64,000 bases of DNA, from the NCBI RefSeq assembly GCF_002775205.1, contig NC_036444.1:434001-498000 (forward strand), written 5' to 3'. The stretch is from Xiphophorus maculatus. Lineage: Eukaryota > Chordata > Actinopteri > Cyprinodontiformes > Poeciliidae. The notes beneath the pieces were generated by a model. The model was not told the origin of the DNA and ran no database searches. It worked only from the letters and a program-made list of their open reading frames with translations. The translations under genes were made by a program, and so were the position numbers. This document shows positions 13,382-47,940 of the stretch, piece by piece. Each line of letters opens with the position of its first letter. Within the stretch, counting starts at the first letter, position 1.

Positions 13382-14680
13382 ACACTATGCTCAGTACTAG
13401 AACCAGTACAGCCACCAGTAGAACCAGTAGCCCTGCTGATTGGTGCGTCTGTTGCAGGATGTTCTCCTGGGTGGTGAAGGTCGTTCCTCAGCCTGCTGAA
13501 GCTCCGGCTGCTGCTGTAAGACAACACTCACTGTGCAAAAGTTTTAAACCAGGCCTGGCTGTTTTTCTGGACTGGTTCTACTGGGGCCCAGTAGAACCAG
13601 TCTGTTCCCGGACTGGTTCTACTGCAGAAACAGTTCCGAGTTCTGGAATGATTTGGATGTTTTTCAGGGTTCCTGAAGGTCTCTTTTTAAATGTTTCTAG
13701 TTTTCTCTCCTCATGTCCGTGTCGTTTGATAGCTACGCTACGCTACGCTGGAGTTCGTACAGGAAGTAGATCGCCTCAGGCAGAAGGAGGAGTCCTTTAG
13801 ATTCCTGTCCAACAAATTTCACAGCAAACAATTTATGAAGCAGAAATGAAACAACACAAACTAGTAATGGTTTAAAAATGTTACGCTGTAATCAGTTACA
13901 CTCATTTTCATGTCATAAATATTTCATGAAGTAAAACAGAGAAATGATTCCCTGATTCTACCAGGAGATGAAGCGTCTGCCAGCAGAAACCGTCACGGTG
14001 GGAGTTGGCCAAATGCAGCGAGATTAAAACGTTTGTTTTGTGATTTCTTTAATGAAAAATATGAACAAACTTACAGAGTAAATAAAAAGGAACATGAACC
14101 ATGAATCTGGGAGACGATAGAGAGCTCACAGGAAGAACGACGGGAAGATCCTGCAGGGAGTGAATGGGAACGAGAGGCTTAAATACTGAGGAGGATGAAT
14201 GTGAACAAAAGACCTGAGCTGATGAGTTAACAGGTTACAGGTGTGAGGGGAGGAGCAGGAGGCAGACCTTGCAGTGACCTTGCAGTGACCTTGCAGTGAC
14301 CCTGGCTGCCCTGTGGTCAGGTCTGATCCACCTATTTGTGAAGGCAGGTGGCGCTGCTCCTAAAGTCAGTCACAGTTCCATCCATGAGGCTCGTTTGGTT
14401 CGATTACAGGAAACCACACAAGGACTTTCTGACTTCAAGAAAAATTATTTTATTAAATTATCCTAAAGAAATAAAATCTGAAAAGGGAATAACTGAAATG
14501 AAAAACCAAATTAGATTAACGCAAAACCCATAAATAACCAAAAACAAGCAAAAGCCAAAAGTAACTAAGACATTTAAACCAAACCGAACGTTTTTCTGAG
14601 GAGGGAGAAAGAAAATCCTCCTGTGTGCAGCAGGAAAAACATCTGCAGAAGGGAAGGGGAGAGACCGCCGGGAGCCGTAG

Positions 14681-20700: not shown

Positions 20701-23700
20701 TATGACAAAGTTCATGAGGAACTTTTTAAAATACCAACATCTCAAGACATTACTTACAAGTTTCTCCACACATTTATATACAGTTCCACTAAATACACAT
20801 GAATGTAGAGGAAGACTGGCATTGGTCCATTATTTTAGTGATTTGACCTTTGACCTGTGGACCGAACCAGTCCTGGTTTGAAAGATCCAGAAACGATGCA
20901 GCAGGCTCACCAGCACCGTAACGTTGGACCAGAACGAAAAAATCCCGTTCATAAATTCACTGGCTGGTTATAAATGACTTTTATTAACAAAATGAGTAAA
21001 AAGATTATCAGAAACTAAGAGCCAAATAGTTCAGCCTCAGTTACTGTTTACGTTCTTGACCAGTATAACTCTGTATGCATAGTTAGACAACTTTTCTCCA
21101 ACATGCAAGAATTTATCAACAAAACAATTCAGCCTTCAATTACAACGTATTATAGAAAATTCAGTTTTTACATGTTTTTGTTCTTCTATTTGCTTCGGTT
21201 TCTTCTACTGCTTCGGTCCAAACGCAAACAGAAAAACAAACTCACTAAGCTAATGACATTCAGCTAAACTCCTGAGTAAAAATGAAAGAATAATGAAAAC
21301 TAATAAAACTGGAAAAGATGAACAAATGAGAATAAAACAAACAACAAGAAAATGGTGACTGATGTTGAAGTTCAGTGTGAAAGTTGAGAAACCAGGTTCT
21401 GATCCCTGTGGGTCGCCTTGCTCCAGAGGTCAAAGGGTCACCTGGACAGGTCGGCAGGACAACACAGAGACAGACAGGACAAACACACACACACACACAT
21501 ATTTGACATGTTGACAATGCAAGGCAGAAATGTTTTCGAAAAGTAATATTTCATTAATTAACTTAGTGAATTAAAAACCAATAACCTTTTGATTGTGTCT
21601 CTGCAGCCTGGAGGAGATTAAAGCATCAACACTGTAACACGCTTCTAACCAGACACAAAGCCTAACGTTGACCTCTGACTCCTCCTCCTGCTGCAGCTTC
21701 CTCCAAACTGAAGCCCGACATGGTTCTGGAGGACATGGAGTCGGACAACGAGGGCCAGAACCGCCCTAAAGCTGCAGGATCCCAGGGTCCAGCGGGCGAC
21801 CCGGCCCAGCAGGAGAGGGGGAGGTCCGGCTCTGCGCAGGCTCTGGGGAGATGCGCCACCCAAGTGGCCCCGCAGGACCCGGCTTCAGACAGCGGGACAA
21901 AAACATCTCAGGAAGACGCAGAGACCCAGACGGGCCGCTGGACGCCGTTCATCGAAAGCATTAAGAAGGAGGCTGAAGGCGTGGCGCTGGCCTCCATGGA
22001 GGAACGGTGAGCCGGCGCTGGTTCAGGAGGATTCCTCTGCAGCACACAGCATCCCTGTAACCCAGTGTATCTGCTGCAGCCTGCTGCTGGAGCGCATGGA
22101 GATGGCCCGCCTGGCCGAAGAGGTGGCCCGGCAGACGGCAGAGATGGCGGTGAGGCAGATGGCCAGCGAGGGAACCTCCATCAAACTCTCCCTGGAGAGC
22201 CAGGAGCTGCTGGAGGAACCAGAGGAACCGGAGGAACCGGAGGAACCGGAGGCCGAGTGAGAACGTCTTCAGGATTTCATCTGGGACCAACATTATGAGG
22301 AACCTGACTGACTGTTTTAACCTGACTGACTGTTTTAACCTGACTGACTGTTTTATCCTGACTGACTGTTTTATCCTGACTGTTTTAACCTGACTGACTG
22401 TTTTAACCTAACTGACTGTTTTATCCTGACTGACTGTTTTATTCTGACTGTTTTAACCTAACTGACTGTTTTAACCTGACTGACTGTTTTAACCTGACTG
22501 ACTGTTTTATCCTGACTGTTTTAACCTAACTGACTGTTTTAACCTGACTGACTGTTTTATCCTGACTGTTTTAACCTGACTGACTGTTTTATCCTGACTG
22601 TTTTAACCTGACTGACTGTTTTAACCTGACTGACTGTTTTATCCTGACTGTTTTAACCTGACTGACTGTTTTAACCTAACTGACTGTTTTATCCTGACTG
22701 TTTTAACCTAACTGACTGTTTTAACCTAACTGACTGTTTTATCCTGACTGACTGTTTTATCCTGACTGTTTTAACCTAACTGACTGTTTTAACCTGACTG
22801 ACTGTTTTATCCTGACTGACTGTTTTATCCTGACTGACTGTTTTAACCTGACTGACTGTTTTATCCTGACTGTTTTAACCTAACTGACTGTTTTAACCTG
22901 ACTGACTGTTTTATCCTGACTGTTTTAACCTAACTGACTGTTTTAACCTAACTGACTGTTTTATCCTGACTGACTGTTTTATCCTGACTGTTTTAACCTA
23001 ACTGACTGTTTTATCCTGACTGACTGTTTTATCCTGACTGACTGTTTTATTCTGACTGACTGTTTTAACCTAACTGACTGTTTTAACCTGACTGACTGTT
23101 TTAACCTGACTGACTGTTTTAACCTAACTGACTGTTTTAACCTGACTGACTGTTTTAACCTGACTGTTTTAACCTAACTGACTGTTTTAACCTGACTGAC
23201 TGTTTTAACCTAACTGACTGTTTTAACCTGACTGACTGTTTTAACCTGACTGACTGTTTTAACCTGACTGACTGTTTTAACCTGACTGACTGTTTTAACC
23301 TAACTGACTGTTTTAACCTGACTGACTGTTTTAACCTGACTGTTTTAACCTAACTGACTGTTTTAACCTGACTGACTGTTTTAACCTAACTGACTGTTTT
23401 AACCTGACTGACTGTTTTAACCTAACTGACTGTTTTAACCTGACTGACTGTTTTAACCTGACTGACTGTTTTAACCTAACTGACTGTTTTAACCTGACTG
23501 ACTGTTTTAACCTGACTGTTTTAACCTAACTGACTGTTTTAACCTGACTGACTGTTTTAACCTAACTGACTGTTTTAACCTGACTGACTGTTTTAACCTG
23601 ACTGACTGTTTTATCCTGACTGACTGTTTTATTCTGACTGACTGTTTTAACCTGACTGACTGTTTTAACCTGACTGACTGTTTTAACCTGACTGACTGTT

Positions 23701-24893
23701 TTAACCTGACTGACTGTTTTATCCTGACTGACTGTTTTATCCTGACTGACTGTTTTATTCTGACTGACTGTTTTAACCTGACTGACTGTTTTAACCTAAC
23801 TGACTGTTTTAACCTGACTGACTGTTTTAACCTGACTGACTGTTTTATCCTGACTGACTGTTTTATTCTGACTGACTGTTTTAACCTAACTGACTGTTTT
23901 AACCTGACTGACTGTTTTATCCTGACTGACTGTTTTATCCTGACTGACTGTTTTATTCTGACTGACTGTTTTAACCTGACTGACTGTTTTATCCTGACTG
24001 ACTGTTTTATTCTGACTGACTGTTTTAACCTGACTGACTGTTTTATCCTGACTGACTGTTTTATTCTGACTGACTGTTTTAACCTGACTGACTGTTTTCT
24101 GCTGCCAGATTGCCAGCCGCACCAGAAGAAGTCATCAAGCTGCAGCCAGATGCAGAGTGAGTATCAGCTGGTTTATTAAACGTCTCCATGGTCTCTGCTC
24201 TCTGCAGCTGCTTGTTCTGCGTTTCCTGCATCCAGAGGCTCTGGGCTCCCGCTGGGAGGCGAGAACCGAGCTGAGGTTCTACATTCTACCCAGTCACTAT
24301 GTAATGCGGCGGCTCGACGCTACGAGCTTAGCTGCACTGTAAAACGTCCTCCATTGCAAAGAGAGAAGAGTTGACCGAACGTTAATGCAATATTTGGGGG
24401 CGTGGCCAACACAGACTGAACGGTTTTGCTCAGCCGCTGCTAAAACTAAAACTCTTTCTGTTCACTGATTGGCCTGCTATCGGAGAGAAACCAAGTGAAT
24501 GAAAGGAAGCCCAGACTGAGATTTCTTTTTGAGTGGAATTGCACAGAAAAGCGACGGCCAGGATAGGATCCTGAGATATCTTCTTCTGAACTTATATTTC
24601 ATCAAGCTAGTTCGTCCTCTGTCTCATTATTCTGGTAAAAAGTCGGTAGAAAATTGGAAACATTTAGTCAAACTTAAAGTCAGACACTTAGACTTTTTCT
24701 ACAGTCTATATAAATATCTAATGTCAACTTTAAATGCCTTTTTAAGAATATTTTGTTGTTCCAATCGGCTATTAACTGATTTAGCTAGTGGTTGGTCAAG
24801 GTTTTCTCATTTACAGATGATTTCAAAATAAAACCCATTTCTTTGTGATAATTTTTTATCTTAAAGTTTACCCAAATACTAGGACAAATGAAT

Positions 24894-27041: not shown

Positions 27042-30000
27042 AAGCAGGAAGTGTGTGCAGCAGCTGTGACAGAGCAGCCGCAGAAAGCAAACGACGCTCC
27101 GACTCCTAACACAGAAAAGGTAACGAGATTTTCTCTCCATGGTTTAGTTCATCTAACTGGGATCGCTCCTGGTTAACTGGGTTCGTTCCTGGTTAACTGG
27201 GTTCGTTCCTGGTTAACTGGGTTCGTTCCTGGCTAACTGGGATCGCTCCTGGTTAACTGGGTTCGTTCCTGGTTAACTGGGTTCGTTCCTGGTTAACTGG
27301 GTTCGTTCCTGGCTAACTGGGATCGTTCCTGGCTAACTGGGTTCGTTCCTGGCTAACTGGGTTCGTTCCTGGCTAACTGGGATCGCTCCTGGCTAACTGG
27401 GTTCGTTCCTGGTTAACTGGGATCGCTCCTGGCTAACTGGGTTCGTTCCTGGTTAACTGGGATCGCTCCTGGCTAACTGGGTTCGTTCCTGGCTAACTGG
27501 GATCGCTCCTGGCTAACTGGGATCGCTCCTGGTTAACTGGGTTCGTTCCTGGTTAACTGGGTTCGTTCCTGGTTAACTGGGATCGCTCCTGGTTAACTGG
27601 GTTCGTTCCTGGTTAACTGGGTTCGTTCCTGGCTAACTGGGATCGCTCCTGGTTAACTGGGTTCGTTCCTGGTTAACTGGGTTCGTTCCTGGTTAACTGG
27701 GTTCGTTCCTGGCTAACTGGGATCGTTCCTGGCTAACTGGGTTCGTTCCTGGCTAACTGGGTTCGTTCCTGGCTAACTGGGATCGCTCCTGGCTAACTGG
27801 GTTCGTTCCTGGTTAACTGGGATCGCTCCTGGCTAACTGGGTTCGTTCCTGGTTAACTGGGTTCGCTCCTGGCTAACTGGGTTCGTTCCTGGTTAACTGG
27901 GTTCGTTCCTGGCTAACTGGGATCGTTCCTGGCTAACTGGGTTCGTTCCTGGCTAACTGGGTTCGTTCCTGGCTAACTGGGATCGCTCCTGGCTAACTGG
28001 GTTCGTTCCTGGTTAACTGGGTTCGTTCCTGGCTAACTGGGATCGCTCCTGGCTAACTGGGATCGTTCCTGGCTAACTGGGTTCGTTCCTGGCTAACTGG
28101 GTTCGTTCCTGGTTAACTGGGTTCGTTCCTGGTTAACTGGGATCGCTCCTGGCTAACTGGGATCGTTCCTGGCTAACTGGGTTCGTTCCTGGTTAACTGG
28201 GTTCGTTCCTGGTTAACTGGGATCGTTCCTGGTTAACTGGGTTCGTTCCTGGTTAACTGGGATCGCTCCTGGCTAACTGGGATCGTTCCTGGCTAACTGG
28301 GTTCGTTCCTGGTTAACTGGGTTCGTTCCTGGCTAACTGGGATCGTTCCTGGCTAACTGGGTTCGTTCCTGGCTAACTGGGTTCGTTCCTGGCTAACTGG
28401 GATCGCTCCTGGCTAACTGGGTTCGTTCCTGGTTAACTGGGATCGCTCCTGGTTAACTGGGTTCGTTCCTGGTTAACTGGGTTCGTTCCTGGCTAACTGG
28501 GATCGCTCCTGGCTAACTGGGATCGTTCCTGGCTAACTGGGTTCGTTCCTGGCTAACTGGGTTCGTTCCTGGTTAACTGGGTTCGTTCCTGGTTAACTGG
28601 GTTCGTTCCTGGTTAACTGGGTTCGTTCCTGGCTAACTGGGATCGCTCCTGGCTAACTGGGATCGTTCCTGGTTAACTGGGATCATTCCTGGTTAACTGG
28701 GTTCGTTCCTGGTTAACTGGGATCATTCCTGGTTAACTGGGTTCGTTCCTGGTTAACTGGGTTCGTTCCTGGTTTGATTCCAAACAATGTCTAATCTAGA
28801 ACTGCTCTGATGTTTTATTTATTATTTCCACTTCCTGCAGGATGAAGATGCTTCTGGAGACGGTTGTGGAGGTAAACAGCATTTTGGTACATAGAAGATC
28901 AAGAGTAGAACCAGAACCAGAACCCAATGCTCTGCTCTGATTGGCTCTTCCTGTCTCTCTGTGCTCTGATTGGCTCTTCCTGTCTCTCTGTGCTCTGATT
29001 GGCTCTTCCTGTCTCTCTGTGCTCTGATTGGCTCTTCCTGTCTCTCTGTGCTCTGATTGGCTCTTCCTGTCTCCCTGCAGCGCCAGTCAGCTGTGATGCG
29101 TTTAAGAACTGTCTGATGCGTTTCCCGCCGACCTCTGAGTGCTTTGGCAACATCAACGCGTTCTTCAAGGAGAACGGCATCTCCCCTCCCCAGCTGCCCC
29201 ACATGCCCCGCCCCCCCACCCGGCTCTCTGACCTCACCAGCTACCTGCCCCCGCTGCCCTCTCTGCCCCCGGAGCTGCGCCACGAGTTCTCCCAGATCCG
29301 GCTGACCCGGGTCCCGCGGAGCGTCGCCCAGAGCCTCACCCAGCTGTTGCCCGGCGGGGCCGCAGGGGACCCGGAGGCCCCAGTGGGCCCCGGCCTCTCC
29401 GGCCTGGCCCACAGCCTGTCCTCCATCCCGGAGAAGCTGACCCAGCTGCCCAGCAGAACCCAGCAGAGCTTCCTGAACATCTGGAACCGCCTCAACAGCC
29501 TCATGCCACAAGATGCCTAAGAACCGGAACCAGAACAGGAAGCAGCCGGACTTAGAACTCACGCACTTCCTGCGGCACCCCCCGGTGCCCCCTCCTCATC
29601 CTCAGCCGACCTCCCCCTGTCCCTCCCCCCCCACCCTGCCCAACGTGCCGTCCTACCCCCGCCTGCCGCCCATCGCCAGCCCGCCGCGCCCGATCTCCGG
29701 CCTCGCTAACCCCGCCTTCTTCATCGAGGAAGACTCAGACGGTCCTGCAGGTGAAGCCGCCTCAGGGGTCCAGGTGTAACTGCAGCAGGTTAGGGTTGGA
29801 GGCCGGCCCGGCTCCTGCTGAAACAAACTGAGGAGCAAAGCAGCAAATCAACTGAAAACCTTTCAAAATGTCAGAAACTACAGCAGGATGTCCAAACTGG
29901 CAAATTTAAACTATTGGCAGGTCGAAAAATCCTTCAAATTAATCTGAATATCATGAAAGATCCAAAACATAAACAGGGCTGCTGCCTTATTAAAAAGAAA

Positions 30001-33000
30001 AACTATTTTTATGTCATCATTTATTCTCTATTTTGTTGGACAAACAAAATCATTTCATGGTCCACCAATGGCCCTCAGCCCACAGTTTGGACACCCTGAA
30101 GTAGAAAAACGAAGCAGAGACATTTTTCAAAAAAAGTTACAGATATTATTTCTTTTTAGTCGTTCTGTAGAGATGCAGCAGAAGTTTGGCCTTCATGATA
30201 AACTAAAGCAGCTTCAGGTCAGTTCAGGATTAACGGGATTATTAACGGGATTAAAACGCTTCCTGCAGTCGGTGCATCACATTTTAACTGAAAACTTCAA
30301 ATAAGCTTCGTTTTGATGCCGCCTGGATTAGATGAGCCTAGGAATATATTTTCAGTCTGAAATGTTTGTTTGTTTGGGTTTGTTAAAAACCCGACCAGAA
30401 CCGGGTCTGGGTCAGATGCCGACTCTCTGTATGGAACCAGAACCATGTTGGTCGGCTCAGCCTGGATGACCCGGCAGAACCGGGTCTCTGAGCTGCAGCT
30501 GCACAAATCCTTCATGTGTTCATCAGGAAGACATGAAGCAGGAGCACCTGAGTGAGATCCCTCGTTACAAAGTTCATTCATTCATTCATTCATTCATTCA
30601 TTCATTCATTCAGACTAAAAAGTGAAACTTTATATCAGCAGACAGAAATAAATTTGTTATTTTCCAACAATATTTCAGTTTCACCTGAACGTCTCTGTGG
30701 TCCAACAGAGCCGAGCCTCAGCCTCCGGCCCGCGGTGAGCGTGGAGGATGTCGACCAGGAGGGAGGAGCAGCAGGAGGAGGAAGAGGAGGAGAAAAAGGA
30801 GGAGGAGGAGGAGCAGCAGGAGGTGCAGGAGGAGGAGGCGATGAGAGCAGCAGCCTGGCCCTGGACCCAAAGCTCAGCACCCTGACGGTCCCCGTGGCCC
30901 CGGCAGGAGGCCGCCAGAGGTGAGGCGCCTGCAGACGGATTTCCCCGGGTTTGACTCGTTCAGTTCTAGATTTGAAAGAAAGCCGCTCTTCCTCTTCTGG
31001 AGTTTAACAGAGGACTTTGGATCAGTTTTTCTGATCAGTTTCATCTGTTTTCTATGCAGCTGTGCTGATAAAACGATCTGAAGCTGAATCTGGATCTTCA
31101 CTGAAACGTTGTGTTCTTTCTCTCCTCGCATGCTTGCGCTCACAGTAGAGGAGATAAAGAGTAAGGAAGCTGCATGGGAGCTCACTCTGTCAGCTGTTAG
31201 ATTTCCATCAACGTTGCATAAATTCACAGAATCGGTGAATGGAAGTGAAACGTTTTGATCCAAAAGGCGATGAGTTTATTCCAGAAAACCACCTCTAAAG
31301 GATTCTCTGATAAAAATAAAATGTGTGATTTTGGACAGAGACGTTTCATGCTATTGCCTCCTGCACTGCCCCCTGCTGTCCGTCTTCTGGCTCTGCGGTT
31401 TTGTTCTGCAGAAACAATCCAAACGTTTTGATTTCATCTGATCTAATCTGGACGAAACGATGCGCACAAGCAGCGTTGGGCCGAGTTGATGCAGAACTGA
31501 TGCTTGTTGCTGCGGCAACTTCTCTGTACGGCTTTCTGCTTCTTCCTCCTGTAAGCTCATCTTCATCATCATCAATAAAACCTGCATGGCACGCTGTGGA
31601 TCCTCTCTGTGTCTGATGCATGATCTGCTTGGTGCATGGCTCTGAGTGCTAACTCCATGTTTTCTGCCCTTACTCGACCTCTGATCCACTCTGACCTCTG
31701 ACCTTTGACCCTTGTTCGTCCACAGCGGTGGGAGGAAACGCCCGACCATCTGGACCAAGACGTAAGCCCAACAGCCACTTCCTGTGCTGTTTGTATTTGA
31801 ATTAAGTTGTGAATTAATTTAGTTAATTCATCCTGGTTGGGATTCTGTTCTCACTCAAGGTTTTTAGAAAATAAATCCTTTAAACTCAATTAATTCACAG
31901 AGGGCAGAAACTCCTAGTGAGATAGCATTGTATTGTTGCCAGTGGTCTGTATGTCCTCCAGGACCTTGTCAGTGTTGGAGCATGCAGCGACCTTTGGCCT
32001 TTCGCTATGCAGGGTTTGCTCTAAGACGTTGACGGAAGGAGGCAGATTTAATCTGTTGATGGTCCAGATTAACGCTGAGGCTAATCACTTTTTTTTTTTT
32101 ACCCCTCCAGGGCTCTAGAGTCCCTTTTTACAAAGTAGGCTGACAGGAAAGGGGGAAGGAGAGGGGGAAGACATGCAGTAAACGTCGCCAGGTCCGGGAG
32201 TCGAACCCACGACAGCCGCGTCGAGGACTTGAGGCCTCCAAATGTGGGTTGCGCTAACCGCTACGCCACGCCCAGCTAATCACATTTTCATCAAAGGCAA
32301 ACGAAACAAGCAGCTTTTTCAATTTAAAAACACTTTTTGCTGCTAAATTATTGAATAAATGTCAATCTGAGCTCAGCAGCAGATTATTTATAGTTTTTAA
32401 TCTTCATCAGATTGGACCAAAGTTCATCTTTCCAGATGATTGTGGATCTTCTTTACGAATCTCGACTGTGGAAGCTAACATTAGCGTTAGCTGCTACATG
32501 TTTAGCATTGAGATGCTATTTTAGGCTAGCTTAGCTTCTGATAGGCTAACTCCTTTTAGCACAACTTGAACAGTACAGCAGTCTTTTCCAGCACCAGATT
32601 CTTCTGCAGCAGAAATGAAGCCAGTGGGTCCATAGCAGCGGCTCCTGTTAGCTGTTAGCGGATGTAGCTGTGCTTCAGATTTATTGGCGTACTAGAAACA
32701 CAATACAAAAGTTTAGTCAGGACTTCTGTAAAAGACGCGATTAATTGTGTTGAAATCTTTAACCTAATTAATCTAATGTAATGTGTTAAAGTCCCGGCTC
32801 TAATCCAGATGTTCTGGTTCTGCTGAAACTTGACCCATGTTCTGTTTTGATGGAAGCATCACACTAGAGCTGTCAGTGTAACCAAAGAATAGAATTTAGT
32901 CGGGTTCAGATAGCAGTTTACTATCAACCAGTTTTGTTTATTACAAATTTCTGGACTGAAATACATCCAACTTCATCTCAACTCAAATCTTAGAGGGAAC

Positions 33001-36000: not shown

Positions 36001-36975
36001 CAGAAAACTCTAAATAAACACAGAAAAACACAGATCCTGACACCAGGATTTTGTGATTATTTTTGCAGTGTTAAGTTATATAATGTTAAATGTGACATTT
36101 CTTTAATCGCCCAAAGTTTCTGGTCAATTGAGACAAATCTGCAGTAAAATCAGAAAAAAAATGTGGGGTCTGTTGATTTTGCACATTCGTGAAAAACTGG
36201 AGGGATTTATTGATGTAACTTGGAGTCTAAAGGGCCACATAAAAAGCTACGGTGGGCCAGATTTGGCCCCTGGGCCTTGAGTTTAACATGTGATCTAGAT
36301 GCTACATGTGTTTGGAATAAACGCATTTTATTTATTAACCACAAGAATTCAGTTAAATACTTTATTCAACACACTTGTTAAGTCAGTGAGAAAAAAGAAG
36401 AAAGAATGATTAAACTAATAAACTATTGCATAATAAATATAACACCTAAGTTATTTCTAGGTGTTTTATCTCTGCCTAGAAACAACCTCCTACTGGACAA
36501 GGTTAGCTTCGCGCCACCAGCTAGCCTGTGCAGCGAACAGTTAGCTGCTGGTGAGTTTCTGCCGGGAAATGAGGACGAATTTAGTTCTGCAGAATTCTGA
36601 ATAAAACCGGGATCAGGAATTCAGGAATTATTCCTAAATACAGTCACAGCAACAAGGAGCAGCGAGCTTGGTGGTGTTGCTCTGCTGGGAACAACCGGAG
36701 CTAACGCCGCGCAAGGCTGGGCGAGAGTCACAGGCCATCCCTTCATCCATCTATCCATCTATCCCTCCATCCCGTGCTGGTTTTCCTCTTGTCCTCCAGG
36801 CTGAGGGAGCGCCCAGCATCCGCTGCCAGTCAGACCAGTCAGACCAGTGCTGTGGTCAGTGAGCGACTCCAGGAACTGGTCAGGATGTTCAAAGAGAGAA
36901 CGGAGAAAGCCAAAGAGAAACTGATCGACCCAGACAGCTCCGACGAAGAGAGCGTCATCACCGGTGAGTCTTCCT

Positions 36976-37061
<86 letters not shown>

Positions 37062-40000
37062 CAGACGTTCAGACATCTGGAAAGTCCTGGAAAGTCCTGG
37101 AAAGTCTGCAGGTTCCTCTGCTGCAGCATTTCAGGCCCAGCTGAACTGAGCAGTAGATTCAGAACAGGTTCGTGTTTGTTGGAGATCAGCTTTTCTCAGC
37201 TTGCCGGGTCGGATCGGATCAGATCGGGTCGGGTCGGTGGGTCCAGATTTCTGACCCTGAGCTTTTGACCCCTGGGTTTCCTGGGGTCAAAAGCCAAGAA
37301 GTCCAAATCCAGTGGGGTAGATGAGGATGGGGGGGCAGACAGATGAGCAGTGAAGGTGTTCCCCTAGGGCGGGGGGGGGCGTGCAGCAGGACGCTCCGCC
37401 CTTATTTGGTCCTTCTGGTCAGCCGGCTCCAGACGAATTTAACAGGGATGGCACCAGCTTATTCTGGGGGGGGGAATTAATCTACGTAGCAATATTAGTC
37501 GAGTAAAAGAAAAAGGTACAGCGCAGTAAAACTACTCTTATAAATACCATTTTTTCCAAAAAAGTTACTCAACTGAATGCAACAAGTACTACCCACTTTT
37601 GAACATAAACAACACCATCAGTAGCCTACAGGCTACTAGTTAACTAGCTTAAGGTCCTATACTGGTATTAGCTAGTCATCTTTTAGCTAACATTACTTGC
37701 ATCCAACAGCTTAACTCAACTCAGTCGGTTAGTTTGGGGGGAAAGTGTGCAAAGTTCTTTGCGTTTTACGGGTTTGCTTCCCTGATTCTAACACACCTGT
37801 GCAGTTCTGCACAGCAGCAGCAGGTCTTCGTCCGTAAACTCAGCGCTAGCGTCTTAGCGCTCATGTTGCGTTTAAAGGCGTTATGAGATGTTAACAACGA
37901 TTAAAAAGTTTTAACTGCTGAAAAAAGTGACAGAAGTCACAGATATGGAAGTGCGGAAGCTCCTACTGTATCAAATCGATACAAGAATAACATAAATCTG
38001 GCCACTCTGAGGTAAAATCCCCCCAATGCTCGCCATGCCGCCGGGCATTCTGATGATGATCAGGCACAGAGGTCAAAGGTCAGCAGCAGCGTCTCATATC
38101 AGACTGCAGGGAAGTTCTTGTCCACACCGAACCAGAACCAGAACCTCCACTGACTGCCATATACCTACCAATAGAACCCAGTTCTGGTCGTGTTGGTTCT
38201 GGTCGGGTCCAGTCGGTTCCAGTCAGTTCTGGTCGGTTCCGTTTCTCTGTCTGATCGTGTTTCTCTGTTGTTTCTTCCTCAGCTCCCCCTCAGCCTCCAG
38301 CCGCCCCCCAGGATGAGGAAGAGGAGGAGGAAGGCAGGTCAGAAGGTCAGTGTGTCGGCGGGGCAGGAAGCGGGTCGGAGGCGCCTGGAGGAAAGGAGAC
38401 TCGGTGGATCCGGGCCTGCTGGCCGATCCGATTCCCCGCCAGCATCGACCCTTTCACCAGTGAGAATCCCGCAGTACCTGCTGCCACCGCCTGCTTCTCC
38501 TCCTCTTCATCGTGTGCCTCTGTAATCTGTCCCCAGACATCCTGTACGTTCTGTGGATGTTCCTGGTTTCTGCAGCCTGGAACTGGAACGTGTGGCTGAT
38601 CCCCGTCCGCTGGGCGTTCCCCTACCAGACGCCCCAAAACGCCCCCTACTGGCTGCTGGCTGACTACGCCTGCGACCTCATCTACATCCTGGACATCGCC
38701 GTGTTTCAGCCGCGCCTGCAGTTCATCCGTGGAGGAGACATCGTGGTGAGGCAACCTCAGAATAATCTGAGATAATCTGGGAATAATTTGAAAATAATCT
38801 GAGATTATGTGATTACTGTGCAGTTCCATAACGAGCAATGTCTTATTTCTCTGATTCCTCATTTTGTTTTCTTGTGACAGTGTGACAAGAAGGAAATGAG
38901 AAAGAATTACATGAAAACCAAACGCTTCAAGGTAAACGGATCAGGACTAGAAGGGAAATATTCCGTGGATTTTTCCGTGAATGCTTCCTGACTCCTGATT
39001 TGTTTTGCAGTTCGACGTGGCCAGCCTCCTTCCTTTGGAGCTGCTGTACTTTAAGACGGGCATCAACCCTCTGCTGCGGTTACCTCGCCTGCTGAAGGTC
39101 GGCTGCTGAACTGAAAAGACGCGGAGATTCTCCTCTTCTCTAAACATTAGAAAGGAAGCTGAGAGGTTTCTGTTGTCTGTCGGCTTCTCTGCAGATCAAC
39201 TCGTTCTTTGAGTTTAATGAGCGACTGGAGGCCATCCTGACCAAAGCCTACATCTACAGGTCAGCCTCTGGGAAACGCTCTCAGACAGAACAAAGTACCA
39301 GCTCATTAGATGCATCACGCTGCTGTGAAGCAAAACTGGCATCAAAATTTGGTTCATCTACTTAATAATAATGATTTATTATTGATAAAGTTAGGGTCTC
39401 TTCACATGAATCGGGGCAACACCCATAAATATCTCTGTCTCTCATCAAGGCAGCAGAAAACTCCTCACAAACACAGTCACTACGTCTGGGACAATGCATG
39501 CTGGGAGATGCAGTTTGATGAGTGCGTTAGTAAAATGGAAGGCGGTTCTGTGTTTCAGGGTGATCCGAACCACAACTTATCTTCTCTACTGTCTTCACTG
39601 CAACGCCTGCCTCTACCACTGGGCGTCCTCCTACATCGGACTGGGGGCCACGCAGTGGGTCTACAACGGGGTCGGCAACAGGTCGGGGAAGGTCACACTT
39701 TGCAACCTAAATGTTGAGCTAGCTCAGAGGTCAACATGCAGTTTGGACTGGAGCTAAACAGTTAGCTTACTAACTAAATCTTTTGAGCTAAATGTTTAAA
39801 TAAGTTGGTAAACTAAATAATTAGCTTCATAAATATTTATTGACATAGCTAACTATTTAGCTCCAAATTAGTTAGCTCTTAGCAAGCTAAATACTTAGTT
39901 GACATTAAATATTTAACTGGCTTGCTAACTAAGTATTTTTGATTGGGACTAAATATTTAGTAGGTAAATGTTTAGCTTACTAATTTAATATTTAGCATAA

Positions 40001-43000
40001 AGCTAAATATTTAAACTAGATGGTAAACTAAATTTTTAGTTACATAATATTTAGTCAGTAGGCTAATGATTTAGCTCCAAACTAGTTAGCTCTGAGTTAG
40101 CTAAATACATAGTTTACAAACACAATATTTAGCTAGCTCCTCGCTACAAATTTGAGCTAAATATCTAGCTAGTAAATATTTTGCTTGCTAAATAAATATT
40201 TACTTTGAAACTATGACATTTATAAATGAATGAATGATATGGTGAAAACATGACACTGAAAAATTGCTCCCATATTTTCCTCCTTTAACAGACCAGATCA
40301 TTGCTGTTAGCTTTTGACCGTTAACTTTACAAACGGCAGCCCGTAAATATTTACTCATCCTCACCAGAGGTCCCAGCGTTTCCCGTTCTGGAAGAAGAGC
40401 GAGTGATTGTAGACTTTCTATCTTTGTTTTTTCTTACTGTATTTCACTGGGTGTTTGTGTTACTTGTTTATCTGTAAATTCGTGTTAGTTTCGTCACGTT
40501 TTAAGGGGTTTTTGTGGGTTCAGGTGTGGCCGTCAGGCCGGCGTCTTAGGACGCCATGGTGGTTGTTGGTGGTGGGTCTTTCTCCACGCTGACACGGAAG
40601 AATGGCATCAAGGTGGGTGCTGGTTCTCCGTGCAGCGTGGAGGAAGTTTGTTTGGCAGTGGGTGAGGTGATTGGGCACGGGAATATTAGGTCTGCAGCAC
40701 GAATGAATGGAGCGGTGGTGTTGTTTGTGGAGAAGGTTGAGCAGGCTCAACAGTTGGTGAAGGAGGGCGTTGCTGTGAATGGTTTGTTTTTGCAAGTGTT
40801 GCCATTAACACTGCCAGCGACTAAAGTGACTCTGTCAAATGTGCCACCGTTCATCAGCGATGACTTTTTGATTAAAGAGTTGTCAAGGCACGGTAAGGTG
40901 GTGTCACCGCTTAGAAAAGTTCCTACGGGGTGCAAATCACCTCTTCTAAAACATGGCGTCTCCCACAGAAGACAATTATTTATGATTTTAAATCGTAAAG
41001 ACGAGGAGCTAAATCTAAGATTTCATGTTAAGGTAGATGAGTTTGATCATATGTTGTTTGCCACATCTTCTAACATGAAGTGCTTTGGTTGCGGTAAAGA
41101 GGGCCACATTGTAAAGATGTGTCCCGACAGGGCCGGGCCGGCCCCGCCGGCCTCGGCGAAGCAGCAACCCGCTGCTGCTAAGCAGGTGGGGGACCCACCT
41201 AGTGAGGCTGGAGCGGCGCATTCGCCACCCCGCGGTGGCGAATGCGGAAGAGCCCGCTGCCGCTGCGGAGGAATCCGCTGCCAATGCGGAAGAGCCTGCT
41301 GAGGAAGAGCCTGCAGATGGTTTGGTTGAGGAGGTGTCGGTAGTGGACAGTGAGACGAGTGTGCGTGTGAGAAAGGACGGGGGCACGGTGGTGATGGTGA
41401 AGGTGTGGAGGGAGGACAGGAGGAGGTGAAGGACAGTGAGGAGCATTTAGTGTGTGGGGACCAGGGAGGGACAGGTGAGGTGGAGGTAGGAGGACAGAAT
41501 GAAAGGAGGAACAGTGTAGAGTCGGTTTTGGGAACTGGATTGGAGGGAGAGACAGAGGAGGTGATGGAAGTGGAGGCTTCTGCCCCGGTAAAGAGGCGAA
41601 GCAAAAGGAGGAATGTGGTGGCTGCTGTGCAGGCCAGCAGGCAGGTCAGCAAGCTGGCTGGAGAGAGGAGGGAGGTGTCGGACAGCAGCGACGCTGAGAG
41701 CTGGTTCTCTGACACCAGCGAGGCGTCAGTGACTCAAACAAGTAGTAAAGAACCAAGATACCCTGTCGAGTCTTACAGAACGTTTTTAAAACAAACTAAA
41801 GGGCTGAAAGGAGTAAAGATAGAAAGTTATTTTCCAGATCTGAGAATCTTTTACTCCTCTGCGAGACATCACATTAGGAACAACGAAGTATCGGGTTTTG
41901 AAAAGACAGAAATATTTAGATTAAAGAAAGCAATGTCAAAAGCGAGAAAACTTTTTTGAGTAAAAATGATGCACAGTGATTTTTTAGTATTTTTATTATT
42001 ATTATTTTTTATAGTCTTTTTGTGTGTTGGTTTTAGCTTCTTACCCAATATGGATTGTTTTAAAATCGCAACTTTGAATCTTAAAGGGGCGAGGGAGGCT
42101 GAGAAACGGGCTTTGATTTACCAAACACTGAACCAAAAGAAAATCGATGTTATTTATTTACAGGAAACTCATAGTGATCATTTAATTGAGACGGACTGGG
42201 GCAGAGAGTGGAGGGGGGAGGTCATTTTAAGCCACGGCGCCTCCCAGAGTGCAGGGGTGGGCTTCCTGTTCTCTAAGGCTTTCACCCCAAACTCAATAGA
42301 AGTAGAGCATGTCGTTCAAGGGAGGTGTCTTTTAGTTAAAGCAAAGTTTGATATTTTTAGTCTGGTTTTTATTAATATTTATGCTCCGACCACCAATGCA
42401 GAGAAAAAGCGTTTTTTTGAACAAATTGGGGAAAGGTTGGGTGATTGTGGGTCTGAGGATTATGTTTTTATAGGCGGGGATTTTAATTGTACAGAAAACG
42501 AGTTTTTAGATCGTAATCATGCAGAGCTGCATCCGGCGGCCCAACATGCTCTGCGGCGGCTGGTCTCGTCTCACGGCCTGGTGGACGTATGGAGGAGGAT
42601 GAACAGGCTCCAGGCAGTACACATGGTCCCACATTAAGGAAAACCGAATCTCTTTAGCTCGACTTGACCGGTTTTATTGTTTTAAACACCATTTTAACGT
42701 GTTGAAAACATGCCAGATTTTACCGGTGGCTTTTACCGATCATTCGTTGCTTTTAGGTGTTTTTAATAGAAACATTTTACCTAGGAGCGCTTACTGGCAT
42801 TTTAACTCAGCTTTAACTTATGATCAGGGTTTTAAGGAGATTTTAGGTTATTTTTGGACTGGTTTTAGGCAAAGAAAGTCCGATTTTACTTGTCTGAGAC
42901 AGTGGTGGGACCATGGGAAAGTTCAGATAAAACTGCTGAGTCAGCAGCACACCCTTAATGTCACCAGTGACATTACCGGATCTATCAGGGATCTGGAGAT

Positions 43001-46000
43001 GAACATCGTGGAATTAGAACAACTTAGTGAATCCACAGGAAGTCGAGAGTACATTGAAGCTCTCAGATCAAAAAGGCTAGTTTTAGCAAACCTGCTGGAG
43101 AATAAAGTCCAAGGCGCTTTGGTCAGGTCCCGGGTCCAGAACATCACAGAGATGGATGCTCCCTCTGGCTTTTTCTTCAGCTTGGAGAGGAAACACGGGC
43201 AGAGGAAGCAGATCCACTCTCTGCTGTCGGACACGGGGCAGCAACTGAGTGAACCAGGGCAGATCAGGAGGAGGGCTGTGGATTTTTACCGTTCTCTGTT
43301 CCACAGCGAATATGAGGAGAACGAGGAACGTTTAGAGGAGTTCTGCTGTGAACTGCCTCAGGTCTCCGAAGAGACCAGAACCGACCTGGAGCGCCCCCTG
43401 GGGCTTCAAGAACTCCACACAGCCCTCCTCAGCATGCAGGGCCAGAAGTCCCCGGGCATTGACGGGCTCACTGTGGAGTTTTACAAGGCCTACTGGGATC
43501 TTCTGGCCCAAGATTTGCTCGACGTCTACAACGAGTGTCTGCACACTGGTTCACTCCCCTTGTCCTGCTGAAGGGCGGTCATCACCCTGCTGCCCAAAAA
43601 GGGGAACTTGCAGGAGATAAAGAACTGGCGCCCTGTGTCCCTCCTCTGCACCGACTATAAGATCCTCTCCAAGGCCCTGGCCACGAGGCTGGGGAAGGCT
43701 ATGGAGCAGGTCATCCACCGGGATCAGACCTATTGCGTCCCCAGCAGGTCCATGGTAGATAATATCTACCTAATTCGGGATGTTTTGGAGGTCTCCGGTT
43801 CATTGGGTTTGAAGACTGGCTTGATTTCACTAGATCAAGAAAAGGCATTCGACCGCGTCGAACACGGCTTCCTCTGGGAAACCATGAGGAGGTTCGGGTT
43901 CAGCGAGGGTCTTATCGCCAAGATCCAGGTTCTGTACAGTGGCATTGAGAGTGTGCTGAAGATCAACGGTAGCCTGTGTGCTCCTTTTAGGGTGTGTAGA
44001 GGCGTTCGACAGGGCTGCGCGCTCTCGGGGATGCTCTACGCACTCTCCCTGGAACCCCTCCTCCGGAAAATACGCTCGAGTGTTTATGGTCTGGTTTTAC
44101 CTGGTTTTAAGGACAATATGGTTTTATCTGCCTACGCTGACGATGTTGTTGATTTTGTAAAAGATCAGCAAGACGTCACTGTTTTAACCAAGATCACTGA
44201 AAAGTTTTTTACTCTGTCCGCTGCGAGGGTGAACTGGGGAAAGAGTGCAGCCCTGGCCGTCGGCGAGTGGCCTGCAGGGCTCCCAGTTCTCCCTCAGGGT
44301 CTTTTATGGAAGAAGGACGGTTTTAAATATCTTGGTGTGTTTTTAGGCAATAAATATATTGTGAACAAGAACTGGGACGACATTGAGCAAAAAATAAAAA
44401 ATAAACTGTCAAAATGGAAGTGGCTTCACCCACAAATGTCCTACCGGGGCAGAGTGTTGGTGTTAAACAACCTTGTCGCTTCACAGCTGTGGCACAAGCT
44501 CTCTGTTTTAGACCCACCGTCTGGCTTAATTGTAAAGATTCAGTCAGAGATGGTAAACTTTTTTTGGAACAGTCTGGAACGGTGCCACAGTCAGTTTTAT
44601 TTTTACTGAGAGAGGGGGGCCAGGGCCTTGTCCACCTGGCTAGTAGAACAGCTACCGTGCGTTTACAGTTCCTGCAAAAGTTTCTTACAAGATCTCCTGT
44701 ATGGAAAGATGTGGCCAGCTGCATCCTCAGACGTGTGAATTAGACTTAAATAACAGCAGCGCAAAAGTGCTGTTTAGATACTGTGTAAAGATCCTACACA
44801 AGAGAACTCTCTGCAAAAGATCCGTCAGCGTGTGGAGCGACAGACTCGGAGGACAGAAACCTCAATGGAGGACTTTATACAAGCCTCCAATCAAAAAACG
44901 GACTGGTGATCTGCAGTGGCGGATTTTGCACGGCGCTATCGCCACAAACTCGTTTTTATCGGTCATCAGTCCTGGGGTTTTAAACGAGTGTCCATTTTGC
45001 AGTTTGTCTGAGAGTGTGTTTCATGTTTTTACAGATTGTGTACGGTTAACTAGTTTTTTTAATTTTTTAATGAGCGTTTTTAGCCTTTTTGGAATGGTTT
45101 TTACCAATTCCCTTTTTATTAACGGTGTACATCACTGTCGATCCACAAGTTTTAAATCTTGTCTTTTAAATTTTTTAATAGCCGAAGCCAAAATGGCTAT
45201 TTATATAACTCGACGAGACAAAATGCAGGCTGGACCTCAACTCGACGTGGTGGCTCTGTGGAAGGTCAATATTAAGGCCAGGTTGAGATTAGAGTTTTGT
45301 TTCTACAGAGCCACCAGGAATCTGAGGGGTTTTTTAGAACTGTGGGGTTTTCATAATGTATTGTGCACCATTTCCGATCAGGGAGACCTAAAATATAATA
45401 AGCTGCTATTGTAAATATTTATTGTGTTTTTAGTGTCCTTTGACCTGATCATGTATTGTTTTTATTGTTAAAATATTGTGCAATAAATGTTTTGTTAAAA
45501 ATAAAAAAAAAATCTTCTTCTTCTACTTCTTCTTCCCTCAGTTATATTCGCTGTTACTACTTTGCGGTGAAAACTCTGATCACCATCGGCGGTCTGCCGG
45601 ATCCCACCTCCCTGTTTGAGATCGTCTTCCAGCTCATCAACTACTTCGTTGGAGTCTTTGCCTTCTCCATCATGATTGGTCAGGTAGGTGTGGTCGCTTA
45701 GCTGCACTCCTGGTGTCAAACCAGCAACCGCTGCCTTGCTTGTGTGTCAGATGCGTGATGTTGTCGGTGCGGCCACCGCGGCTCAGACCTACTACCGCAC
45801 CTGCATGGACAACACTATCAAATACATGACATCCTACCACATACCCAAAGACGTCCAGAACCGCGTCAAGACCTGGTACAACTACACCTGGCAGTCACAA
45901 GGCATGCTGGGTAAGGAGAGCGCCACCTGTTGGTGGTTGGTGACCTGAGCTGCTGTTAATGCTTCACATCTGGATGTTTGTCTCCAGATGAACAGGAGCT

Positions 46001-47940
46001 TCTGACCCAGCTGCCAGATAAAATGCGTCTGGACATCGCTGTAGACGTCAACTACTCCATCGTGAGTAAAGTCCCTCTGTTCCAGGTGAGGAAGTGCTAA
46101 AGTCACCTGCCGGGTGTTAACCTGAGTCTGCTCATGCTGGTGTCATGGCTGCTGGTGTGAAGAACCAAAGTGTCTTCCTGCATCCCAGGGCTGTGACAGG
46201 CAGATGATCTTTGACATGCTGAAGAGTCTGCGCTCAGTCGTCTACCTGCCTGGAGATTACGTCTGCAAAAAGGTAAACCTCCCCTCTGAAAGCTAGCATG
46301 AGCCGCTAGCGTCATGCCTGACCGTGTGCTTGCTTCCTGCCCCCCCAGGGCGAAGTGGGTCGGGAGATGTACATCATCAAAGCAGGGGAGGTGCAGGTAG
46401 TTGGAGGTCCGGATGAGAGGACGGTGTTCGCTACGCTGAGAGCAGGATCCGTGTTTGGAGAGATAAGGTACAGAAAACTGCAAGGTTTCATGATACCGTA
46501 AAATCAGACATGTAGTTAGAGTGACTCAGATGGATGTTTCTGCCTAGAGTCGGACTGAAGCTGAAGACGTTCTGCCTGACCCGGTTCTGCTTGGGGAGTT
46601 GGAGCTCCTGCTCTCTGAGCAGTTATTTTATTATTTTAGTTTATATCTTTAATTCCTCTGATTCTTCATTTTCACCTGAGCTTCCTAATAAGAACAAGTG
46701 GAAAAGTGAAAAACCTTCAATAATAAGAAATAGGAAACAACCTGTAGAGAGTCAGATTAACTTGCCAGATGTGGCACAGTTCAGATTGTTTTTCGTCCAT
46801 TCGGGTTTGTGTCGTGTTACTCTGAACGCAGCCCGACAGGCAGCAAAGTCTGACAGGCAGCAAAGTCTGACAGGCAGCAAAGTCTGACAGGCTGGATGTT
46901 CCAACAAATCTCCTTCACTTCCTCCTGTTTGGACCGGCTTTCTGTGTTTCTGATGGGCCGTCATCATGATCAAGCTGTCTGGTTCTCAGTTTGCTAGCGG
47001 TGGGCGGAGTCAACCGGCGCACGGCCAACGTGATCGCTCATGGGTTTGCCAACCTGTTCATCCTGGACAAGAAAGACCTGAACGAGATCCTTGTCCACTA
47101 CCCCGAGTCCAAGAAGCTGCTGCGCAAGAAGGCCAGGTTAGCATCCAGATTATCTTCCGACGCCTGCTGCATTCCTCCTTTACCTCTTTCTGTAACACCT
47201 TTTCACCACAGGAAGATGCTTAATAAGGGAAAAAAGCCTGAACCCAAAGTGGAACCTAAGGAACCGGCTCCGGTACCGGTAGCTTCTCTCAGGCCCGAGA
47301 CGCCCAGACTGCTGCGAGCGGCTCTGGAGATGACGGAGAGGTCGTCTGGACTGAAAGGAGCTCTGGCTCGGGTCAAAGAGAGGAGCAGCAAGTCCAGCAT
47401 CTCACTGCAGGTAAACACCTCAGAGATTCAGCTGCTAGCTAGCAAGCTATCCCGTTAGGTCCATGTTTAACTGTTTCATTGGGATTTATGAAACAAGGAA
47501 CACAAAGTAGAGCAGAGCTGGGAAGTTTTACAGCCAGAGCTACGATGCATGGTTCATATTAGAGCAGATTCATGGATGAGAATGGCCTAGTCAAAGCCCA
47601 GACTTGAATTCAGCAGAGAACGTGTGAGGAAAGTTGTTTCATGAAGGTTTCAGTCTGCAGACATTCAGAGCTGCTGGAAACGAGCATGAAGCATGTTAGT
47701 GATGGACTTCCTGTCCTCCGTCTCCTCCAGCGGTCCCTCTCCGCCTCGCTGCGACCTCCGGACCCCGTCCTCAGCCCCGGACCGGACCCGGACACGTCCC
47801 TCTCTGCCAGCTCCACGACGCTTCGCTCAGCTTCTCGGAGCTGCAACCCTGCAGATTTTCCTCCTGCACAGCTGCAGCGCGGCGCTGCGGGATGGGATGA
47901 GAGTGAGGATGAGTGGGATGAAGGAGGAAGAGGGAAGTGA
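14783..47940 (+). CDS. cngb1: Rod cyclic nucleotide-gated channel subunit beta-1, with GARP region; apparent frameshift in exon 17
   Basis: Beta subunit of the cGMP-gated cation channel of rod outer segments. Exons: 14783-14855, 14940-14985, 15064-15169, 15398-15417, 15497-15608, 17471-17495, 17558-17675, 18145-18251, 18331-18391, 19052-19127, 19221-19245, 21697-22006, 22080-22256, 24109-24156, 26918-27119, 28841-28871, 29081-29750, 30709-30919 (or from 30679), 31726-31761, 36800-36963, 38283-38459, 38537-38745, 38881-38931, 39011-39097, 39195-39259, 39559-39681, 45542-45683, 45751-45910, 45988-46085, 46189-46272, 46349-46467, 46990-47136, 47212-47410, 47731-47940. The GARP part has four short repeats ([56 protein letters not shown]), then acidic EP-repeat exons. 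Next come the calmodulin-type site [20 protein letters not shown], the membrane domain ([20 protein letters not shown]), the beta-type pore [11 protein letters not shown], the C-linker and a complete cNMP-binding domain. Exon 17 is one base too long and stops at 29518. The start ATG is a choice; the ATG within VMGW (about 15080) resembles the mammalian start. Confidence 0.9.
16319..17237 (+). mobile_element. Non-autonomous hAT element with BED-finger remnant
   Basis: Lies in cngb1 intron 5. The left end reads TAGTGATGTGTCGG and the right end, reverse complemented, reads TAGTGATGGGATTTTCGG. The flanks are TTATAAAC (16311-16318) and TTATAAAG (17238-17245), an 8-bp target duplication with one difference. 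Subterminal AAGAGCCGGCTCT palindromes occur near both ends. At 16873-17058 a 61-codon frame ([10 protein letters not shown], then KVSISY) resembles the N-terminal BED zinc finger of hAT transposases. The rest of the transposase is gone, so the copy cannot move itself. Confidence 0.8.
19266..19592. repeat. 23-bp minisatellite in cngb1 intron 11
   Basis: About 14 tandem copies of a unit like GTCAGTAGTTTAGGAAACAG plus GCG. The copies vary at GTAGATTAGG and GTATATTCGG positions. The array begins about 20 bases after the exon 11 donor. Confidence 0.9.
19877..20080. repeat. 11-bp minisatellite (TCACTGGGANC) in cngb1 intron 11
   Basis: About 18 tandem units of TCACTGGGATC, TCACTGGGAGC and TCACTGGGACC. 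Because 11 is not a multiple of three, all frames stay open across it, which creates a spurious long reading frame. Confidence 0.9.
20475..20640 (+). repeat. tRNA-derived SINE fragment in cngb1 intron 11
   Basis: Has a box-A-like TGGCGCAGTTGGTAACTCTG and a box-B GGGTTCGATTCCCGG about 30 bases later. It continues into GCATGTTCTCCCTGTGCG and GGTTTCCTCCCACAGTCCAG. This is the usual order in fish tRNA-derived SINEs. No clear tail or target duplication was found. Confidence 0.6.
22300..24098. repeat. 1.8-kb minisatellite in cngb1 intron 13
   Basis: About 100 tandem copies of an 18-bp unit (CTGACTGACTGTTTTAAC). Variants are a 14-bp unit lacking one CTGA, and units with TTTTATC, TTTTATT or CCTAACTG. 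The array starts about 45 bases after the exon 13 donor and ends about 10 bases before the exon 14 acceptor, so it fills nearly the whole intron. Confidence 0.97.
24896..24925. repeat. (ATT)n microsatellite
   Basis: Short run of ATT units in cngb1 intron 14. Confidence 0.8.
27157..28774. repeat. 1.6-kb minisatellite in cngb1 intron 15
   Basis: About 80 copies of a strict 20-bp unit (AACTGGGTTCGTTCCTGGTT). Almost all variation falls at three positions: GTTCG/GATCG, GTTCC/CTCC and GGTT/GGCT. The array starts about 37 bases after the exon 15 donor and fills most of the intron. Confidence 0.97.
28927..29073. repeat. 29-bp minisatellite before cngb1 exon 17
   Basis: About five tandem copies of a unit starting CTCTGATTGGCTCTTCCTG. 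It runs up to within about 10 bases of the exon 17 acceptor and supplies the pyrimidine-rich tract. Confidence 0.9.
30573..30611. repeat. (ATTC)n microsatellite in cngb1 intron 17
   Basis: About ten tandem TTCA units, about 70-100 bases before the exon 18 acceptor. Confidence 0.9.
32089..32274 (-). mobile_element. Full-length tRNA-derived SINE, antisense to cngb1
   Basis: Read on the minus strand, the element begins GGGCGTGGCGTAGCGGTTAG (box A) and has box B GGGTTCGACTCCCGG about 60 bases further on. It ends in a run of A (a T-run on the plus strand at about 32089-32100). A duplicated GCTAATCAC flanks it at 32080-32088 and 32275-32283, as expected after target-primed insertion. It lies in cngb1 intron 19. 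Confidence 0.85.
34189..34496 (-). repeat. LTR (3' copy relative to the element)
   Basis: 308-bp terminal direct repeat, preceded by the CCAGG target duplication. It lies next to the polypurine tract and contains the AATAAACACAG block. Confidence 0.88.
34518..35714 (-). CDS. Proline-rich repeat protein of the LTR element
   Basis: One intact 398-codon frame fills almost the whole internal region. It starts 20 bases inside the 5' LTR and ends 21 bases before the 3' LTR. The first 60 residues or so are ordinary and mildly acidic ([20 protein letters not shown], then [19 protein letters not shown]). The remainder is low-complexity: Arg/Pro repeats of the type [16 protein letters not shown], followed by many copies of VPPETPC or VPTETPC. 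The position fits a gag-like product, but I see no zinc knuckle or major homology region. Overlapping frames on both strands stay open only because the repeats lack stops. I do not know its function. Confidence 0.55.
   Translation of the reverse strand: MVREQHDQEAWFQQQLELAQRDLYKDVEILPSPLLLEEMGLDSDYTLAINKCLIPPVTTPKPSGFGPRRYSRRGRQRREPPVNPAPRRLPDPSPPLSARRQRREPPADPAPRRFPEAPPPLPGRRQRREPPVHPAPRRLPEPQPVPRLRCGSPPQPVPRPHPCVPPETPCVPPETPCVPPETPCVPPETPCVPPETPCVPPETETPSVPPETETQSLSVPPETQTPCVPTETPCVPTETPCVPTETPSVPPETETPCAPTETQSLSVPPETQTPCAPTETPTLCAPPETLPRGARRRRLWAAPGTHHSRLQRRGRPPDHLRGSRHRGRPPDHRQTTSVVPASFASAHPVGSFLFVFGLLAFLCFCPQWWVVFCFFWTLAPRPAPLRPPLLCFCFVGVW
35735..36042 (-). repeat. LTR (5' copy relative to the element)
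   Basis: 308-bp partner of the repeat at 34189-34496. Its outer end TGACA is followed by the CCAGG target duplication. Its inner end reads TATCA instead of TGTCA. Confidence 0.88.
36210..36292. repeat. MITE-like fragment
   Basis: The text GGGCCACATAAAAAGCTACGG and GGGCCAGATTTGGCCCCTGG resembles the subterminal part of abundant fish hAT-type MITEs. Related scraps occur near 26810-26870, 30060-30100 and 34035-34080. No ends or duplications can be defined. Confidence 0.35.
36977..37059. repeat. (CA)n microsatellite after cngb1 exon 20
   Basis: About 41 CA units, starting 13 bases downstream of the donor of the calmodulin-site exon (36800-36963). CA-rich tracts close to donors can act as splicing enhancers through hnRNP L. 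That is known for other genes and is only a possibility here. Confidence 0.95.
40556..41959 (+). pseudogene. LINE ORF1 (nucleic-acid-binding protein), frameshifted
   Basis: Starts [17 protein letters not shown] and contains the zinc knuckle [15 protein letters not shown] at about 41081-41125, after a region that looks like a partial RNA-binding fold. The frame breaks near 41235, within a repeat of GCGGAAGAG-type units that encodes Ala/Glu-rich sequence. It is regained near 41400 and then runs to a TGA at 41957-41959. The C-terminal part is acidic, then basic ([11 protein letters not shown]), ending [11 protein letters not shown]. Two frame changes make this a pseudogene. Confidence 0.8.
42050..45414 (+). 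pseudogene. LINE ORF2 (endonuclease plus reverse transcriptase), disrupted
   Basis: The N-terminal endonuclease shows [25 protein letters not shown] and GGDFNCTEN. The reverse transcriptase shows [16 protein letters not shown], the fingers region [10 protein letters not shown], the palm [26 protein letters not shown] and the catalytic AYADDVV at about 44131-44151. The C-terminal part has a Cys/His pattern ([17 protein letters not shown]). Defects: frameshift near 42610-42640, an in-frame TGA at 43569-43571 (a probable CGA-to-TGA change, since the flanks read LSC and [11 protein letters not shown]), and frameshifts near 44578 and 44738. The start could also be the ATG at 41966. Confidence 0.85.

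Follow-up and report, generated by a model that had tools for sequence, protein, structure and literature searches.

A cngb1 exon of Xiphophorus maculatus with an in-frame stop is a candidate optional end of a soluble GARP-like protein

Our reading of exon 17 of a cngb1 gene of Xiphophorus maculatus, to which we give slightly more than even credence, is that it is an optional exon, located at the border of the GARP and channel parts, which ends a soluble GARP-like protein. When the exon is included as assembled, the protein would end after a tail of 145 residues; when it is skipped, exon 16 would be joined to exon 18 in the same phase and a full channel subunit would be made. Transcripts would use both routes, the form ending in exon 17 would be polyadenylated within intron 17, and the arrangement would have been inherited by the two cngb1 genes of this fish. 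We prefer this explanation because both genes have a same-phase, stop-ending, skippable exon at the same border. A coding signal found beyond the stop would be accounted for by a recent indel at about 29497-29513 (a consensus error or a private allele) in an exon formerly open over its whole length, or by the reading of this part in another isoform. Such an exon would be ordinary in kind, the alternative end of a known gene, and would add a new member, from a fish, to that kind; a soluble GARP of fish is not described among the CNGB1/GARP literature matches listed, as far as the excerpts of these papers go, which is not proof that none is in print.

The window, i.e. the whole stretch of 64,000 nucleotides that was analyzed, is C2:434001-498000 of an assembly of 704,300,149 bases in 101 contigs, which was the genome searched. 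Exons carry the numbers of an earlier sequence-only reading of this DNA, those before exon 15 are represented by a rough exon chain only, and splice sites were scored on a simple scale made for this analysis (Table 1).

Table 1. Features of the cngb1 gene around exon 17; positions are those of the window.
Feature	Position	Strand	Remarks
Exon 15, glutamate-rich GARP segment	26918..27119	+	rough exon chain; open, in frame with exon 16
Exon 16 (phase 1 at its end)	28841..28871	+	acceptor 6.8, donor 6.6; rough chain
Exon 17 (candidate optional exon, two coding-like frames)	29081..29750	+	670 nt; splice sites, frames
Frame-0 part of exon 17	29083..29520	+	145 codons, then TAA 29518-29520; homology to the C4 gene over the first 58-59 residues
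Most likely stretch of the frame change	29497..29513	+	the ten best placements (of 160) by codon-usage likelihood
ATG in frame 1	29513..29515	+	1 of 2 ATGs in the 222 frame-1 codons of the exon
Coding-like frame-1 tail leading into exon 18	29522..29749	+	GC by codon position, open frame
AATAAA, possible poly(A) signal of the terminal-exon form (weak)	30647..30652	+	intron 17
Exon 18, entered in phase 1	30709..30919	+	acceptor 1.6, donor 10.3
Exon 19	36800..36963	+	in joined open reading
Exon 20	38283..38459	+	in joined open reading
12 further channel exons (transmembrane part, cyclic-nucleotide-binding domain, following exon)	38537..47410	+	no lesion seen

By similarity, the gene in the window is cngb1, the gene for the CNG channel beta subunit of rods and olfactory cells. 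CNGB1 chains were the top PDB matches of the cyclic-nucleotide-binding exon and came first for two frame-wise readings of the region; for a third, the top match was a LINE reverse transcriptase, with CNGB1 ranking highest among the channels. The N-terminal features of the GARP region are also present, namely a glutamate-rich stretch and W..LPQP-type repeats, a motif of our own making with four matches (at 13459, 15080, 15504 and 18146), one of which finds two similar places in the sister gene described below. Four segments gave no Pfam family at E up to 1, a result that is little informative as they include the cyclic-nucleotide-binding segment recognized in the PDB. A segment of 23 residues in exon 19 we take to be the calmodulin site.

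The acceptor AG of exon 17 (29079-29080) scored 7.4 and its donor GT (29751) scored 7.7. Entered in phase 1 from exon 16, frame 0 runs to ...NSLMPQDA and the stop, as the sequence-only reading had described. That reading further held that the exon ends the protein, giving a product of about 658 residues; the position of the stop is borne out, the length is not confirmed since the rough 5' chain leaves the N-terminus unsettled, and the ending itself applies to transcripts that include exon 17 but is overstated, because it assumes that every transcript contains this exon. Phase 1 is the entry phase of exon 18 and likewise of exon 17 when the latter is read in its coding frame, and therefore skipping exon 17 keeps the channel frame: the joined reading 15-16-18 and onwards to 47410 has 756 codons and 0 stops, as compared with a first stop after 223 codons from exon 15 when exon 17 is included as assembled. 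The 15 exons from exon 18 to 47410, with borders chosen by us, have AG/GT borders throughout and join without a stop, in agreement with the earlier statement on the later exons, and the 15 donors scored in the window gene ranged from 4.4 to 11.3. The window gene thus has two features expected of a source of soluble GARPs, an in-frame stop after shared GARP exons and a channel frame that survives the skip. By eye, the end of exon 18 (STLTVPV) resembles that of the sister gene (STLMVPQ); an AGG tract at 30757-30838 of this exon is glycine-rich in the channel frame and glutamate-rich in another.

In mammals a single gene gives rise to the soluble GARP1 and GARP2 and to a GARP-less olfactory form (excerpts of PMC12783967, PMC3747135, PMC12549891, PMC8218941 and PMC4646965), the soluble GARPs being made from CNGB1 by alternative ends (PMC12783967, PMC3747135, in excerpt). 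GARP1, which arises by alternative processing of CNGB1, is like the predicted fish protein in combining the N-terminal GARP part with its own tail; in the mouse, after the 318 residues common to it and GARP2, it goes on for another 232, of which the final 16 are unique (excerpt of PMC12783967), and it would appear to end near the GARP/channel border. The unique tail of GARP1 therefore counts 16 residues, whereas the predicted fish tail has 145 and that of the sister gene 94. A second difference is that CNGB1, from which GARP1 derives, is not among the PDB matches of the predicted fish tail: the frame-0 protein of exon 17 had 15 matches at E up to 10 in a library that includes CNGB1 chains of 1251 and 1394 residues, CNGB1 being absent among them, and therefore mammalian full-length CNGB1 seems to lack this part. 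Searches of bacterial and archaeal genomes and of viral contigs yielded nothing related to the exon 17 protein, which is what one would expect of a gene from a fish. GARP2 is likewise a soluble GARP, made with the alternative last exon 12a, which contributes eight residues in the mouse (PMC12783967, in excerpt), but it ends after the 318 shared residues, ahead of the end of GARP1. A further parallel is the CNGB1 gene of the Papillon dog, in which a frameshift in exon 26 is predicted to leave the two GARPs intact; there, however, the lesion lies in the channel part and retinal disease was shown (excerpt of PMC3747135).

At E up to 1, a search of the genome with a channel exon gave four other places: the cngb1-like sister gene on C4 with 79% identity, two matches on C21 with 46% identity located 13 kb apart, and one weak match on C23 (E 0.04). 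The C21 pair (16916090 and 16928767) we read as cngb3-like, in line with the tandem CNGB3 genes of teleosts (PMC9803222, in excerpt). The same excerpt states that teleosts keep CNGB1 duplicates from their own genome duplication, and the genes of the window and of C4 are likely such a pair. Taking C4 630001-680000 (50 kb) as the region of the sister gene, we found in it all 13 of the 13 queried channel segments, 49-93% identical. Between its exons 16 and 18 lies an exon whose first 58-59 residues match exon 17 with 34% identity (E 8e-7 in the 50 kb; none of 3000 shuffles was as good), and in a genome-wide search at E up to 10 it was, apart from the window, the sole match (E 0.03). The C4 exon has the same entry phase as exon 17 and reaches a TGA after 94 residues; its composition stays coding-like to the end, with a third-position GC of 0.86 as far as the stop and a lower GC beyond it.

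Other properties of the C4 exon are consistent with a terminal role. From its start to about 240 nt past the stop, 4 of the 23 GT sites are in the needed phase, all scoring -3.5 or less (the count covers GT donors), and since no good in-phase GT donor is present, it is hardly an internal channel exon. The distance from the first base of the stop to the beginning of an AATAAA is 41 nt; the 5 kb scanned hold 8 AATAAA and 10 ATTAAA, so that one would fall so near by chance in about 7% of cases (15% for both hexamers), and we treat this proximity as weak evidence. In the window gene the AATAAA of intron 17 lies 1.1 kb past the frame-0 stop. When the homologous exon is skipped, 16-18-19 of the C4 gene can be read open, a reading that rests on an acceptor of exon 18 scoring -3.0, with a better AG (0.2) located 7 nt upstream and out of phase, and on exon 16 being taken in its acidic frame ending in phase 1, one of three that are open. 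The sister gene is therefore probably built in the same way, with a stop in the homologous exon and the channel frame reached via a skip. The C-terminal ends of the two exons are not alignable (60% of 5000 shuffles were as good, and 54% of 3000 in an ungapped comparison), and therefore the two stops may have separate origins.

Counting against an optional terminal exon, the tail of exon 17 looks coding and ends at a good in-phase donor (7.7) that such an exon would not need. Frame 1, which has earlier stops in the exon at 29114, 29303, 29438 and 29474, has no stop between 29477 and the donor and leads on into exon 18, as the sequence-only reading had observed. An open frame by itself is uninformative, being found in 3681 of 5000 shuffles; the GC of the tail at codon positions 1, 2 and 3, in turn, is 0.67, 0.57 and 0.83, and an excess at the third position like this one occurred in the same frame in 5 of 5000 dinucleotide shuffles, and together with an open frame, in any frame, in 1 of 5000. 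The frame-1 coding signal of the tail is more than chance. Codon-usage likelihood places the change of frame ahead of the stop: in the ten best of 160 placements frame 0 is left at 29497-29509 and frame 1 is taken up by 29513, and in the best 30 frame 0 is left at 29488-29515. These results agree with the earlier proposal of one extra base near 29510 as to the region, and do not fix a single-base position. Of the 4 codons at the end of frame 0, 3 end in A or T, versus 14 of the 141 earlier ones, and among the other four-codon stretches of exon 17 only 1 of 137 is as A/T-ending, as if frame 0 lost hold just ahead of the stop; in the C4 exon the figure is 2 of the 4 final codons. The coding tail, the C-termini that do not align and the A/T-ending last codons favor an exon that was once open and later received an indel.

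The same observations bear on the alternative that exon 17 is an always-included channel exon, misrepresented in the assembly by a small erroneous indel at about 29497-29513; we hold this alternative to be rather unlikely. It would explain the coding signal of the tail and its in-phase donor, the sharp switch of codon usage, and the continuity of composition across position 29513, with a GC of 0.67 and 0.68 on its two sides (0.41 in the following intron) and both halves proline-rich by eye. Short frameshifting indels are, moreover, the commonest error of unpolished long-read assemblies, for which two rounds of polishing were needed to reach about one error per 10 kb (excerpt of PMC8081667). 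However, the place of the frame change is not a homopolymer, no other lesion is seen in the 15 joined exons from exon 18 onwards, and the sister exon also stops, with no good in-phase GT donor.

Alternatively, an always-included exon 17 could carry the indel as a real allele, so that a null or truncated product is made and tolerated through the second cngb1 gene on C4. This gene exists, with every queried channel segment found, and a DNA search of the 101 contigs with exon 17 returned a single match, exon 17 itself, and no second copy. The downstream channel exons are free of lesions, however, so the loss would have to be recent, and the in-frame skip offers an easier way out; we regard a real allele as improbable. 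A required exon with an indel, error and allele taken together, accounts for about one third of our expectation. The three possibilities raised by the sequence-only reading are accordingly reweighted, the truncated GARP-like product being raised by the sister gene and the error and the null allele being kept in play by the coding tail.

Within the probability given to an optional exon, a smaller and in itself unlikely part goes to a second use of the exon, in which the tail is read in frame 1, either from the ATG at 29513, giving a form like CNGB1b, or via an internal acceptor at 29498. The ATG has an A at -3, lies three bases ahead of the frame-0 stop and falls at the edge of the estimated switch of codon usage. 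The acceptor joins exon 16 in phase, and a 16-17b-18 reading that uses only 29499-29750 is open for 840 codons from exon 15; its score, though, is -1.8, the thirteenth of the 39 AGs in exon 17. Mammals have the short CNGB1b, an olfactory isoform with the channel part and no GARP (excerpts of PMC12549891 and PMC8218941), which was expressed as human residues 456-1251 (PMC12549891, in excerpt); for a comparable fish form the ATG is only a candidate start, and a form started downstream would escape a lesion in exon 17. Against a second use, the sister gene has no convincing counterpart of the tail, with proline-rich matches only, and the 5 other matches to the tail in the genome have E of 0.6 or more. 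It is distinctly doubtful that one exon serves both as the end of a soluble GARP and as the start of a GARP-less channel, with the stop within eight bases of the ATG, so that whether the rod scaffold protein or the channel is made would depend on which promoter and which poly(A) site are used here.

Two further mechanisms would restore the channel frame without dispensing with exon 17. Removal of a 223-nt cryptic intron (29383-29605) would use an in-phase GT-AG pair with an acceptor of 4.9, but its donor (2.9) is below all 15 donors scored, an equally good pair was found in 17% of 300 codon-shuffled exons, and the stretch itself looks coding, all of which makes it very unlikely. Programmed +1 ribosomal frameshifting at the stop, in the manner of antizyme, would yield GARP and channel from one mRNA; the direction is indeed +1, and the RNA downstream has a slightly stronger fold than shuffled sequences (z -1.85, a value reached by 10 of 200). 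Codon usage nevertheless points to a change of frame ahead of the stop, with a one-base switch placed at the stop itself falling outside the best 30 of the 160 placements (a four-base switch beside it ranks 29th), and the skip makes such a mechanism unnecessary, so that we consider frameshifting extremely improbable.

As a cause of the frame change, a local duplication (ATGCCACAAG/ATGCCTAAG) was rejected, equal repeats being present in 14 of 48 exon neighborhoods and in 135 of 1410 codon-shuffled ones. An exact tandem repeat of period 10 at 29449-29467 was also discarded, because a stop at 29474 still interrupts frame 1.

If exon 17 ends a GARP in both cngb1 genes, soluble GARPs would be old at this locus and not mammalian only. 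The tail of the soluble GARP would be longer in fish, and the function of these proteins would become testable in the rods and cones of a fish that can be edited. The case also illustrates that a gene called broken from a single assembled exon may prove intact once exon phases are checked.

Several repeats and neighbors of the gene were recorded in the window. A gene for a matrixin-type peptidase lies to the left of cngb1 (Pfam). A region at about 23510-24176 is repetitive and open on both strands (FNLTDC and LKQSVR repeats), presumably a tandem array of short units. In the intron directly before exon 16 a unit of 20 bases forms a tandem array of about 81 copies (27153-28772), and a unit of 29 bases is present in 5 copies (28933-29077) directly before exon 17. 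The intron between 39681 and 45542 harbors a LINE-type retrotransposon (about 42062-44576) with endonuclease and reverse-transcriptase parts, and the adjoining open frames from 40550 to 45411 may belong to it. Finally, a perfect inverted repeat (57771-58577 and 59208-60014), with arms of 807 nt that are 100% complementary and 630 nt apart, could represent a recent palindrome, the ends of a mobile element or an artefact of the assembly.
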